NCBI RefSeq assembly: GCF_009799805.1
Contig: NZ_CP047050.1
Span: forward strand, 882,001-946,000
Source of the DNA: Myroides phaeus
Lineage (GTDB): Bacteria > Bacteroidota > Bacteroidia > Flavobacteriales > Flavobacteriaceae
Length of the DNA: 64,000 nt
Reading direction: 5' to 3'
A model generated the notes under the pieces. That model saw only the letters and a list, made by a program, of their open reading frames with translations. It made no database searches and was not told the origin of the DNA. Made by a program: the position numbers and the translations under genes. Below, in pieces: positions 31,077-35,434 of this stretch. The first letter of the stretch is position 1. Each line of letters begins with the position of its first letter.

Positions 31077-32663
31077 TTATCTACTATAACTCGATCTTGA
31101 TGAGGATGAGCTGGAACGTGAAGACGATGATGATGACGGCGCTGAATAAGAAGATCTACTTGATCCTGACGAACTACCGCTATAATTACTTCTTGACGAT
31201 GAATTGCTACTTCCTGAGTTAGTATTTGATCGTGAGTAATAACTGCTATTAGAGCTACTACTTGGCGAACTACTACTTCTGCTATAACTTGAGCGAGAGC
31301 TTGACGAACTACTCGGAGATGAGCTGTAATTGCTATTTGAGCCTTGACTATAACTACCTCTACGTGTTGAACTACTATTAGTTGATGAATTATTACTTGA
31401 AGAAGATGTACCTCTATCGTAATTTGATCTATTAGCAGATGAACTTGTAGAATAACTTGAGCGACTTGAAGAAGAATTTGAGCTTCCTTCAATTTTGTTT
31501 ACCTCTCTATTATTTGAGCCACTGTAATAATCGCTACGACTACTTGATCCACTACCACTTGTAGCATATTCACTTCTGCTATTTCCGCGTTTGTAATCTG
31601 AGCTTCCATTACTTGAGTTGCTATTCCCCCCGCTGTAATAATCGCTACGACTACTTGATCCACTACCACTTGTAGCATATTCACTTCTGCTATTTCCGCG
31701 TTTGTAATCTGAGCTTCCATTACTTGAGTTGCTATTCCCCCCGCTGTAATAATCGCTTCTATTATTTGATCCACTACCACTTGTAGCATATTCACTTCTG
31801 CTATTTCCGCGTTTGTAATCTGAGCTTCCGCTACTTGAATTGCTATTTCCTCTGCTGTAATAATCGCTTCTGCTATTTGATCCACTGCCACTTGTAGCAT
31901 ATTCACTTCTACTACTTCTGCTGCTTGTCAAATCAGCACGGTTATAGTAATTACTCTCTCCATATCTCGTTTTAAACGAGTTGTTTGGATTTTGACGTTC
32001 ATAGTAATCTTGTCTAACATTAGAATACATATTCTCTGCTCTATAACTATTTCTATACGGTCTATAGTAATAATTATTGTTTTGATTTATATGCACGTGT
32101 ACGTGTGAAACATAGCGCCCGGTTGAGTATGGAGCATATCCGTAGTAATAATTTGGATAATAGTTCCAATACCAAGATGAATAGTAAGGTCTGTAAGAAA
32201 CACCCCAGAATAAACTAAACATAGGAGGCGTAGTTACATAAATAGGCTCGTAAATGTAGTTTGCTCCATATAAATATGAATTCCCTACTACTTGCATATA
32301 AACTACTTTCTTGCGTTTATCCTTTTCTACTTCAATAGTTGCAACGTCTTGATATAAATCTTTACCAAGAACAGCCTGAATAACAATTAAGTGCGTTCTA
32401 CCCTCAACTACTTCTACAACTCGTAGATAATCTACATAACCATCCCCATTTAGGTCAAGGTTATTTATACGAGAATAAGGGTCATTTAACCTAAACTCAA
32501 AGTCAGCCAAATCAGACGATTCTCCAAAAACAGAAGCCACTGCTTGAAGGTCTAAGTTATCGCTAATGTCATAGTTATTAGCCGTTACCACAGTTCTTTG
32601 TCCAAAAGACACAGAAAAACTGAGTGTTAAAAATAACAGCGCGATATAATGTAATGTTTTCAT
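31077..32663 (-). CDS. Exported Ser/Tyr-rich repeat protein
   Basis: 528 residues. A signal peptide (MKTLHYIALLFLTLSFSVSFGQ, written in part) is followed by an ordered region to about 130 containing an EF-hand-like loop DLNGDGYVD. A Tyr/Asn-rich stretch (140-230) leads to repeats of 37 residues (starting SRSEYATSGSGS, three full and one partial copies), and then a Ser/Arg/Tyr tail to the end. Low-complexity Ser-rich tails of this sort suggest a surface or matrix protein; function unknown. The same DNA is open in other frames, which are shadows. Confidence 0.85.
   Translation of the reverse strand: MKTLHYIALLFLTLSFSVSFGQRTVVTANNYDISDNLDLQAVASVFGESSDLADFEFRLNDPYSRINNLDLNGDGYVDYLRVVEVVEGRTHLIVIQAVLGKDLYQDVATIEVEKDKRKKVVYMQVVGNSYLYGANYIYEPIYVTTPPMFSLFWGVSYRPYYSSWYWNYYPNYYYGYAPYSTGRYVSHVHVHINQNNNYYYRPYRNSYRAENMYSNVRQDYYERQNPNNSFKTRYGESNYYNRADLTSSRSSRSEYATSGSGSNSRSDYYSRGNSNSSSGSSDYKRGNSRSEYATSGSGSNNRSDYYSGGNSNSSNGSSDYKRGNSRSEYATSGSGSSSRSDYYSGGNSNSSNGSSDYKRGNSRSEYATSGSGSSSRSDYYSGSNNREVNKIEGSSNSSSSRSSYSTSSSANRSNYDRGTSSSSNNSSTNSSSTRRGSYSQGSNSNYSSSPSSSSSSRSSYSRSSSSPSSSSNSSYYSRSNTNSGSSNSSSRSNYSGSSSGSSRSSYSAPSSSSSSRSSSSSSRSSYSR
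31520..31920 (-). repeat. 111-bp coding tandem repeats
   Basis: The landmark TGTAGCAT recurs at 31560, 31671, 31782 and 31893, exactly 111 bases apart, giving 37-codon units in the Ser-rich protein. Two neighbouring copies are nearly identical at the DNA level, which indicates recent duplication or gene conversion. Confidence 0.92.
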
Positions 32664-32900: not shown

Positions 32901-34133
32901 ATGATTGATAGAGAAGAAATAAATTTTGAACGTTCTGTAATCGTAGGTATCGTTACAAAAGATCAAGATGAGTCAAAACTTAATGAATATTTAGATGAAT
33001 TAGAGTTTTTGACATATACGGCTGGAGGAGAAGTATATAAGCGCTTTACACAGAAAATGGAAAAGCCTAACCCTAAGACCTTTGTTGGAACAGGGAAAAT
33101 GGAAGAAATCCACCACTATATAGTAGAGAACGATATTCATACCGTAATATTTGATGATGAGCTTACACCAGCTCAACAAAAAAACGTTTCAAAAATATTA
33201 GATTGTAAGGTGTTAGACCGTACCAACCTAATCTTAGATATATTCGCACAAAGAGCACAAACTTCTTATGCGAGAACACAAGTTGAATTAGCACAATTTC
33301 AATATTTACTACCCCGTCTTTCTGGAATGTGGACTCACTTAGAGAGACAGCGTGGAGGTATTGGTATGCGTGGTCCTGGGGAAACAGAGATTGAAACAGA
33401 TAGACGTATCGTTCGTGATCGTATTACGCTATTACGCGAAAAGTTGAAAGTTATCGATAAACAGATGGCTTCACAAAGAGGAAATAGAGGTGCGATGGTA
33501 CGTGTTGCTTTAGTTGGGTACACAAACGTTGGTAAATCTACTTTGATGAATACAATCGGTAAAAGTGAAGTATTTGTTGAGAACAAGCTGTTTGCTACCC
33601 TTGATACTACCGTTCGTAAAATCGTAATAGGCAACTTGCCTTTCTTGCTTTCTGATACCGTTGGTTTTATTAGAAAACTACCTACACAGTTAGTAGAATC
33701 GTTCAAGAGTACCTTAGACGAGGTTAGAGAAGCAGATTTACTATTACACGTAGTTGATATTTCTCACCACGACTTTGAAGACCACATCGAATCTGTAAAT
33801 ACGATTCTAAAGGACATCAAAAGTGATGATAAACCAACGATTATGGTGTTTAATAAAATTGACGCTTATAAACCGGAAGTTATCGCTGAAGATGATTTAA
33901 TGACTGAACGTACATCACGCCACTACACGATTGAAGAGTGGAAAAAAACGTGGATGAACAAAGTTGGAGAGAATAATGCAATCTTTATTTCTGCAACAAA
34001 CAAGGAAAATATGGAAGAATTTAGAAAGAAATTATATGAAGCTGCACGTGAGATTCATATCACCAGATTCCCTTATAACAACTTTTTATTCCCTGACTAT
34101 GACCACTTAGTAGAAGGTCCAGACAGCGAATAA
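32901..34133 (+). CDS. hflX: Ribosome-associated GTPase HflX
   Basis: 410 residues from the ATG at 32901 (MIDREEINFERSVIVG). An upstream TTG frame start at 32880 is rejected because the promoter -7 box covers it. The N-terminal HflX domain includes FVGTGKMEEI and RGGIGMRGPGETEIE; the GTPase domain has GYTNVGKST (G1), DTVGFI (G3) and NKID (G4). HflX splits stalled or hibernating ribosomes under stress. Confidence 0.95.
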   Translation: MIDREEINFERSVIVGIVTKDQDESKLNEYLDELEFLTYTAGGEVYKRFTQKMEKPNPKTFVGTGKMEEIHHYIVENDIHTVIFDDELTPAQQKNVSKILDCKVLDRTNLILDIFAQRAQTSYARTQVELAQFQYLLPRLSGMWTHLERQRGGIGMRGPGETEIETDRRIVRDRITLLREKLKVIDKQMASQRGNRGAMVRVALVGYTNVGKSTLMNTIGKSEVFVENKLFATLDTTVRKIVIGNLPFLLSDTVGFIRKLPTQLVESFKSTLDEVREADLLLHVVDISHHDFEDHIESVNTILKDIKSDDKPTIMVFNKIDAYKPEVIAEDDLMTERTSRHYTIEEWKKTWMNKVGENNAIFISATNKENMEEFRKKLYEAAREIHITRFPYNNFLFPDYDHLVEGPDSE

Positions 34134-34187
34134 AATATTTGTTCATAAAAAAATTTATAAAGTAACTCAGTGTAATAATATTTTTTC

Positions 34188-34195
34188 TATTTTTA
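34188..34195 (+). promoter_or_regulatory. Candidate -7 box for the asnA leader
   Basis: TATTTTTA, one mismatch to TAnnTTTG, about 25 bases before the leader ATG. No clear -33 TTG. Transcription would start near 34201. Confidence 0.4.
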
Positions 34196-34219
34196 CACTA
34201 TTGCTAAAAAGCTGATTAT

Positions 34220-34306
34220 ATGTATTTATCATTGAACAATAATTTCTCTAATAATAATTTGAATTGTGTATACGATTTGAAGAGGGAAGCTATTGGCAAT
34301 GATTAA
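34220..34306 (+). CDS. Asn-rich leader peptide of asnA (predicted attenuator)
   Basis: ATG to TAA, 28 codons. Asn occupies codons 6-8, 11-13, 15 and 27, that is 8 of 28, with 7 packed in codons 6-15 (MYLSLNNNFSNNNLN...). A terminator follows 31 bases after the stop and asnA 30 bases after the terminator stem. The segment 34281-34291 can pair with the 5' arm of the terminator. This is the arrangement of ribosome-mediated attenuators such as his and trp, with Asn codons matched to an asparagine synthetase gene. I know of no description of this one; translation has not been shown. Confidence 0.7.
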   Translation: MYLSLNNNFSNNNLNCVYDLKREAIGND

Positions 34307-34349
34307 AGTTAATTATATATTATTTCATTATCCGTTTAAAGGCTCCTCT
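34281..34349 (+). promoter_or_regulatory. Predicted antiterminator helix
   Basis: AGAGG (34281-34285) pairs with CCTCT (34345-34349), and AGCT (34288-34291) pairs with GGCT (34341-34344, one G-U), with a two-base bulge. The 3' arm is the 5' arm of the terminator, so the two folds exclude each other. A ribosome held at Asn15 (34262-34264) would cover to about 34279, leaving the 5' arm free; one that reaches the stop at 34304-34306 would cover it. Confidence 0.6.
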
Positions 34350-34368
34350 CTGAGGAGCCTTTTTTTTA
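34338..34368 (+). terminator. Attenuator terminator ahead of asnA
   Basis: Perfect 11-bp stem AAAGGCTCCTC/GAGGAGCCTTT (34338-34348 with 34352-34362), 3-base loop, then a T run to 34367. It is 205 bases after hflX and only 24 bases ahead of the asnA ATG, so asnA must be read through it or use an unseen promoter. Confidence 0.88.
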
Positions 34369-34392
34369 TTAAAAAATTCAAACCTAAATATC

Positions 34393-35397
34393 ATGAGTAA
34401 AAAACAAATTTTACAGACCGAAAAATCAATTGCATTAGTAAAAGACTTCTTTTCTAAAGACTTGTGCAATACATTGAACTTGTATCCTATTTCATCTCCG
34501 ATGATTGTAAATGAAGGAACAGGAATCAATGACGACTTAAACGGTGTGGAGCGTGCTGTCTCTTTTCCTGTAAAGTTTCTTAACAATGATCGAGGTGTTG
34601 TCGTACATTCACTAGCCAAATGGAAAAGAATTAGACTAGAAGAGTTAGGCCTTGATGTACACGAAGGTATTCTAACAGACATGAGAGCGCTTAGACCTGA
34701 CGAAGATAGTAGCCCAATACACTCAATTTATGTTGACCAATGGGATTGGGAATTAAAGATTGAAGATAAAGATCGCAGTCTTGATTTTCTTAAATCTATC
34801 GTTCGCAAATTATATCAAGTGTTGTTAGAAACAGAGGAACAAGTTTGGAAAGAACTACAAATAGAACGTATTCTGCCTGAATCAATCTCTTTTATCCATT
34901 CTGAAGAATTATTACAGCGTTACCCTACTCTATCTCCAAAAGACAGAGAACACGCAATAGCGAAAGAATATGGAGCTGTTTTCATTATGGGAATTGGACA
35001 CAAATTATCAAACGGAGAGCAACACGACAGTAGAGCTTCTGATTATGATGATTGGAGTACTGAAACAGAAGGAGGATACAAAGGATTAAACGGTGATTTA
35101 TTAGTTTGGGATCCTATTCTAAACAGATCATTAGAACTATCTTCTATGGGAATCAGAGTAAACAAAGATGTTCTTTTAAAACAATTAGAGATTACACAAT
35201 CTTTAGAAAAGAAAAACTTACTTTACCACAGTATGTTATTACAAGATAAATTACCATTGTGTATTGGTGGTGGTTTAGGTCAATCAAGAATCTGTATGTT
35301 CTTATTGAGAAAAAGACATATTGGAGAAGTACAAGCAAGCTTATGGCCTCAAGACGTAAGAATTGAAGCTGAAAAACAAGGAATCAGTTTATTATAA
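34393..35397 (+). CDS. asnA: Aspartate-ammonia ligase (asparagine synthetase A)
   Basis: 334 residues, the standard size. The conserved N-terminal SSPMIVNEGTGINDDLNG, VHSLAKWKR, DQWDWE and GGGLGQSRICMFLL segments identify AsnA, a class II synthetase-like enzyme making Asn from Asp, ammonia and ATP. It stands alone with a strong terminator after it and an Asn-rich leader with terminator before it, indicating control by Asn supply. Confidence 0.97.
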   Translation: MSKKQILQTEKSIALVKDFFSKDLCNTLNLYPISSPMIVNEGTGINDDLNGVERAVSFPVKFLNNDRGVVVHSLAKWKRIRLEELGLDVHEGILTDMRALRPDEDSSPIHSIYVDQWDWELKIEDKDRSLDFLKSIVRKLYQVLLETEEQVWKELQIERILPESISFIHSEELLQRYPTLSPKDREHAIAKEYGAVFIMGIGHKLSNGEQHDSRASDYDDWSTETEGGYKGLNGDLLVWDPILNRSLELSSMGIRVNKDVLLKQLEITQSLEKKNLLYHSMLLQDKLPLCIGGGLGQSRICMFLLRKRHIGEVQASLWPQDVRIEAEKQGISLL

Positions 35398-35398
35398 A

Positions 35399-35434
35399 TA
35401 AAAAAGCTCGGTAGAAAACTACCGAGCTTTTTTA
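35399..35434. terminator. Bidirectional terminator of asnA and the DUF3078 gene
   Basis: Perfect 14-bp stem (35401-35414 with 35419-35432; AAAAAGCTCGGTAG arm), AAAA loop, runs of A and T on the outer sides. Confidence 0.92.

Follow-up and report, generated by a model that had tools for sequence, protein, structure and literature searches.

A putative asparagine-codon leader-peptide attenuator upstream of asnA in Myroides phaeus and other Bacteroidota

How is asnA controlled in Myroides phaeus? We studied a window, i.e., the whole analyzed stretch of 64,000 nucleotides (NZ_CP047050.1, positions 882,001 to 946,000, forward strand), in which hflX (TIGR03156 match) is the gene upstream and where a preliminary description had placed an Asn-codon leader peptide and an attenuator ahead of asnA. 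The gene is uncommon, with matches in 17/398 same-genus, 30/397 family and 21/395 phylum genomes. Matches to asnB (TIGR01536) are present in 50/60 family genomes and none was found in the window genome at E ≤ 1e-30, so the product of asnA is probably the sole asparagine synthetase there; asnA is also probably transcribed alone, since a terminator follows it. We conclude that asnA is very probably under ribosome-mediated transcription attenuation of the kind known from the trp and his leader peptides, with asparaginyl-tRNA supply as the signal. The parts of the locus, in window coordinates, are as follows.

34188..34195, + strand: promoter -7-like element TATTTTTA, matching TANNTT[TG][GA], placed by motif position across units
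34220..34306, + strand: leader peptide frame, 28 codons and a stop, MYLSLNNNFSNNNLNCVYDLKREAIGND
34228..34303, + strand: protector hairpin (1:2), -19.7 kcal/mol, shuffle z -2.67, P = 0.010, with covariation across relatives
34235..34264, + strand: proposed stall site, Asn codons 6-8, 11-13 and 15 of the leader
34281..34297, + strand: segment 2, 5′ arm of the antiterminator, which forms a duplex with segment 3 and appears in the stalled-ribosome decision-state fold
34335..34350, + strand: segment 3, common to antiterminator and terminator, from the duplex test and ribosome-position folds
34338..34367, + strand: intrinsic terminator (3:4), stem 34338-34362 of 11 pairs with a 3-nt loop, -17.0 kcal/mol, T run 34360-34367
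34393..35397, + strand: asnA, aspartate-ammonia ligase, the target gene (TIGR00669, 398.3 bits vs. a cut-off of 292.8)
35402..35431, + strand: terminator 3′ of asnA

This locus carries the features of an attenuator: a short frame rich in codons for the end product before asnA (7 Asn in codons 6-15), an intrinsic terminator between leader and asnA (34338-34367), a protector pairing inside the leader (in type-A units, see below), and an antiterminator that excludes the terminator, though weak on alignment A1 (below). The 28-codon frame with 8 Asn codons first described was reproduced at 34220-34306, with Asn at codons 6, 7, 8, 11, 12, 13, 15 and 27. Its 11-bp terminator ahead of asnA also stands, at a corrected spacing of 25 nt rather than 24 from the end of the T run (34367) to the ATG (34393). 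The competing helix is real and longer than the 34281-34291 originally claimed, with 34281-34297 facing 34335-34350 in 13 pairs and three blocks (-11.3 kcal/mol); by itself, the helix is only marginally better than shuffles in the window (P = 0.046, 500 shuffles). The earlier reading had overlooked the protector hairpin (arms 34228-34234/34297-34303, 34237-34241/34291-34295 and 34243-34249/34283-34289, apical 34258-34267/34272-34281), as well as the spread beyond Flavobacteriia, the asnB leaders, the serial double units and the failure to find asnB. TANNTT[TG][GA], which we take to be the flavobacterial -7 box, lies 26-40 nt upstream of the leader ATG in 18/24 units, against a mean of 1.6 and a maximum of 7 in 1000 shuffles. 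Elsewhere in the window, a 528-aa frame (31077-32663, - strand) has a Ser-rich repetitive C-terminal part and no NCBIfam match at 1e-20.

The hairpin could be merely the hflX terminator and the Asn-rich frame a chance run in AT-rich DNA, as would suit a genome of 33-34% GC and the presence of hflX upstream in the window and 13 other loci. We compared the run with a background of the window plus 20 stretches of 20 kb from the same genome (464 kb, both strands). Among 4801 ATG frames of 10-40 aa, exactly one has at least six Asn in ten codons, the leader at 34220-34306 itself, and dinucleotide shuffles of the stretch before the window terminator gave at least seven Asn in ten in 0/2000 cases. 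The terminator lies 205 nt beyond the hflX stop. An hflX match is found in 14/37 loci (window included, flanks of 1.5-3 kb), all of the same genus, whereas the unit is kept in the 23/37 loci without such a match in the flank, among them the same-genus L005 and also L100, where the contig ends and the flank is short. It is also kept in seven loci of 59-69% GC (L016, L018, L020, L021, L025, L162 and L163), where AAT and AAC are mixed; five of these loci are from Hymenobacter or Solirubrum. An hflX terminator with a chance run is thus very improbable. In a scan of the same 464 kb for a frame, a terminator and a gene, 14 candidates had at least four of one residue in ten codons and 2/14 fit their gene by inspection: Asn before asnA and His before hisG. 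The latter (L122:18302-18361, in the window's own genome) has the His-rich leader MFTNKLHHHHHLTCTHASR followed by a terminator, both ahead of hisG (TIGR00070), and we count it in favor of the Asn attenuator.

Is the unit conserved across asnA loci? We gathered 141 loci with at least 250 nt upstream by their likeness to the window AsnA, close relatives included. A terminator-like hairpin lies within 500 nt in 47/141, and in 30/141 such a hairpin is preceded by a leader in which ten codons hold five Asn or more; the same criterion applied to other amino acids gives Ala 1, Leu 1 and none for the remaining 17. Seven further loci have 3-4 Asn and a terminator (L003, L016, L101, L102, L104, L159 and L064, the last probably by chance), and L185 has MNAKTINNNFFNNSNINLFRSRKIMS before a hairpin scoring under the terminator cut-off. 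The expectation that relatives would keep the frame and terminator was borne out directly upstream of asnA in each of the further genomes of the genus that have a real asnA (15/15; in G528 the matching stretch covers just 63 residues and contains stops). The pattern that would speak against the proposal, a hairpin retained while the Asn codons are lost, is seen in part in a clade of five genomes (L003/L101/L102/L103/L104), where ten codons hold 3-5 Asn and the antiterminator does not outdo shuffled sequences (P = 0.28-0.48). In genome G369 the asnA match comes in two overlapping pieces (L106 and L108), so that the gene looks interrupted; the Asn leader is still present.

Leader peptides across lineages have little in common except Asn and range from 14 to 31 aa. 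The genus provides six distinct leaders in the length class of the window leader, and in 6/6 of these codons 6-8, 11-13 and 15 are Asn. Both AAC and AAT occur at codon 6, whereas the other six positions have AAT throughout. Counted by codon position, the leaders differ at 30/14/17 sites, a lack of third-position excess that gives no sign of synonymous-site selection in these six leaders. On a tree of the 141 AsnA proteins, all leaders except that of L173 fall in one clade of 43 (35 with, 8 without), with 5 changes vs. at least 26 in 200 shuffles, the labels for L003, L016 and L185 being assigned by hand. The tree shows clustering of the leaders, not their route of spread. The exception, L173 (62% GC, another family of the phylum), carries VNANLNSNLNLNANNNAMTAGG with a GTG start before its terminator, and its separate place on the tree suggests that it may have arisen independently. 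In L095, a contig labeled Aminicenantes, an Asn-rich frame upstream of asnA comes directly before a GC-rich hairpin that lacks a T run.

We tried covariance model R1 as a detector and rejected it: its automatic structure consists of 9 terminator pairs, and 164/199 same-genus genomes match at E ≤ 0.01. Its ten top matches in those genomes (E ≤ 1.5e-12) are the ten asnA genomes, most of which had trained the model, and the next match (8e-8) is by inspection the end of a coding frame. Weak matches that we inspected were terminators, coding ends or other leaders, and R1 was kept only as a lead.

RNA structure distinguishes two unit types. In type A, found in the window, its genus, Vaginella, Hymenobacter and others, a hairpin spans the whole frame and beats dinucleotide shuffles (P ≤ 0.05) in 19/22 units; in type B the leader hairpin does so in 0/5. 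In an alignment built without structure, protector and terminator positions pair in 68.7% of cells vs. 43-56% when slid by 1-3 columns, and two-sided cells number 86 in true register vs. at most 58 when slid. Two of five covariation measures (pairs with two-sided change, further pair types) are not above shuffles. The antiterminator is weak on alignment A1, with 59.1% of cells paired vs. 58.9% when slid by -2; because terminators shift by one base between lineages, we prefer duplex tests on each unit. The duplex of segment 2 with the terminator 5′ arm beats shuffles (P ≤ 0.05) in 24/31 units, many of them from close relatives, and fails clearly in L101, L102, L103, L104, L003 and L008b and narrowly in L071b. 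Swapping segment 3 among units was dropped as proof, since the own partner came first in just 7/31.

From the computed parts, conservation and competing folds, we infer how the promoter would be used, how the leader would be translated and stall the ribosome, and how asnA would respond to asparagine. Polymerase would start near 34200 and a ribosome would translate the leader from 34220. With ample Asn-tRNA, the ribosome would reach the stop (34304-34306) and cover segment 2 (34281-34297), leaving segment 3 to pair with segment 4, so that the terminator forms and asnA is off. When Asn-tRNA is scarce, the ribosome would stall at the Asn codons within 6-15, with the protector opened and segment 2 left bare; the latter would capture segment 3 while segment 4 has yet to be transcribed, and transcription would continue into asnA. 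If the leader is not translated, the protector would hide segment 2 and the terminator would form.

Folds of the nascent RNA, in which the ribosome is assumed to cover 13 nt past the first base of the A-site codon, are consistent with this scheme. In the window the protector forms when there is no ribosome, a stall at Asn 11 or Asn 15 lets the antiterminator form (-13.0 kcal/mol, with 9 pairs counted), and nothing competes with the terminator when the ribosome is at the stop. The ribosome geometry first suggested, with the antiterminator arm free at an Asn15 stall and covered at the stop, is thus recovered under the assumed 13-nt reach. With the window RNA at full length, the terminator is favored whatever the state, so the antiterminator must act kinetically, by forming first. 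In L018 and L021 the antiterminator survives in the full RNA with a ribosome stalled at a middle Asn. Antiterminator pairs form without a ribosome in 6/13 units folded (L004, L105, L106, L006, L018 and L071), making the role of the protector less clear there.

A long structured leader might also point to a riboswitch or T-box, i.e., a metabolite- or tRNA-binding RNA beside which the frame is incidental, and some Firmicutes do control asnA by a T-box. In the window, however, no Rfam family reaches its gathering score, and weak matches such as Phe_leader (25.7 bits vs. 55) sit on the terminator; we judged the 16 weak Rfam matches in 34100-34420 to be chance or plain terminator. Conservation is centered on the Asn codons, and the leaders before asnB (below) share those codons rather than RNA sequence, which makes such a binding RNA highly unlikely. 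It is scarcely credible, too, that the leader chiefly yields a functional small protein or small RNA and that the stop ahead of asnA is a by-product. A transcript ending at the terminator would measure about 165 nt, and a trans-acting leader peptide has been reported (PMC7298713, in the part available), but across lineages the peptides share little beyond Asn and vary in length. Such a role would in any case be compatible with attenuation rather than exclusive of it.

We examined the upstream regions of 69 of 78 asnB-family matches and found a terminator in 6/69 (2/30 and 4/39). Leaders holding five or more Asn in ten codons precede asnB in 5/69 loci (L226, L277, L283, L286 and L292); the sixth terminator-bearing locus, L224, has MIVIKVNNNFKT. 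Their antiterminator duplexes are weak singly (P from 0.036 to 0.223), and they share Asn codons, not RNA sequence, with the asnA leaders. asnA and asnB are non-homologous, and the same codon before unrelated genes indicates that asparagine is the signal. Upstream of asnS, an Asn leader was found in 0/30 loci (one with a short flank). Taken together, the Asn leader is real, conserved and specific to asparagine; it belongs to a known kind of regulator, with a well-supported mechanism class and a predicted function.

Some genes are preceded by more than one unit. Two units, type A then type B, lie before asnA in L006, L008, L031, L071, L180, L183, L189 and L190; L031 has an Asn-poor first leader and L183 an Asn-poor second one. 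In L008, L189 and L190 the second Asn-rich frame contains PPPGG, has no stop before its terminator and reads through it, and the classic scheme does not explain these three. Serial units are not specific to Asn, with three Ile units in L142 and two Cys units in L148. In L142 (1493-1881), Ile-rich leader and terminator units precede a gene at 1925 that is presumably ilvE-like, with an ilvD-like frame downstream, and in L148 (1449-1790) the Cys-rich leader units precede a uroporphyrinogen-III C-methyltransferase gene. Single leaders of other composition include a Cys leader before cysH (MMMCCCMRNFARGRLLYCLK, L147), an Ile/Val-rich leader before ilvD (MKLIINLILIVSVIVITTYGKGLV, L144) and an Asn/Tyr-rich leader before an aminotransferase gene (MSNNSNYYNNSYYFLTGKRACYAVI, L152), the last gene under curated cut-offs among the matches listed.

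We consider it fairly probable that Bacteroidota use codon-sensing attenuators as a general control of amino-acid genes, that Asn is sensed before the unrelated asnA and asnB with different RNAs, and that several genes carry two or three units in series (Asn x2, Cys x2, Ile x3). If so, serial attenuators would multiply repression and sharpen the response, providing a natural test of whether attenuators multiply, and such general control would imply close transcription-translation coupling in this phylum. The mechanism needs a ribosome close behind the polymerase, so a working Asn attenuator would itself show such coupling in Bacteroidota. Asparagine would join the amino acids that stalled ribosomes sense, and asparagine synthesis would gain a regulator in a phylum without one in the literature searched. 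The leader signature could also aid annotation of missed leader peptides. Term searches revealed no Asn attenuator in the parts available of PMC9723704, PMC2965389, PMC7366714, PMC4833913, PMC1183508, PMC5009743, PMC1262725 and PMC3675131. An Asn leader-peptide attenuator was not found in the literature searched, which covers few of the older comparative studies of attenuation; a prior prediction may exist there.

How does this system compare with known ones? The trp, his, leu, thr and phe operons of Proteobacteria have ribosome-mediated attenuators, and the Asn system resembles them in its frame rich in codons for the regulated amino acid, its 1:2, 2:3 and 3:4 pairings and its terminator before a biosynthetic gene. 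It differs in the amino acid (asparagine), the genes (asnA/asnB), the phylum (Bacteroidota), a long protector over the whole frame, and double units, which some relatives carry. In Firmicutes, T-boxes act on asnA and asparagine genes with the same signal (tRNA-Asn charging) and target, but a T-box RNA binds tRNA, whereas the Asn codons here would be read by the ribosome, and no T-box match was found in the window. In E. coli the same target, asnA, is controlled by AsnC, a protein regulator of initiation, unlike the attenuation proposed for the window. Within Bacteroidota, leader-like short frames have been noted in B. thetaiotaomicron (PMC7366714, in the part available). Closest is Flavobacterium psychrophilum, of the same family-level lineage, for which strong indications that leader peptides attenuate amino-acid operons, the same proposed kind of control, have been described; asparagine is absent from the main text of that proposal as available (PMC9723704). 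The kind of control is therefore already known, and the asparagine version is what we add.
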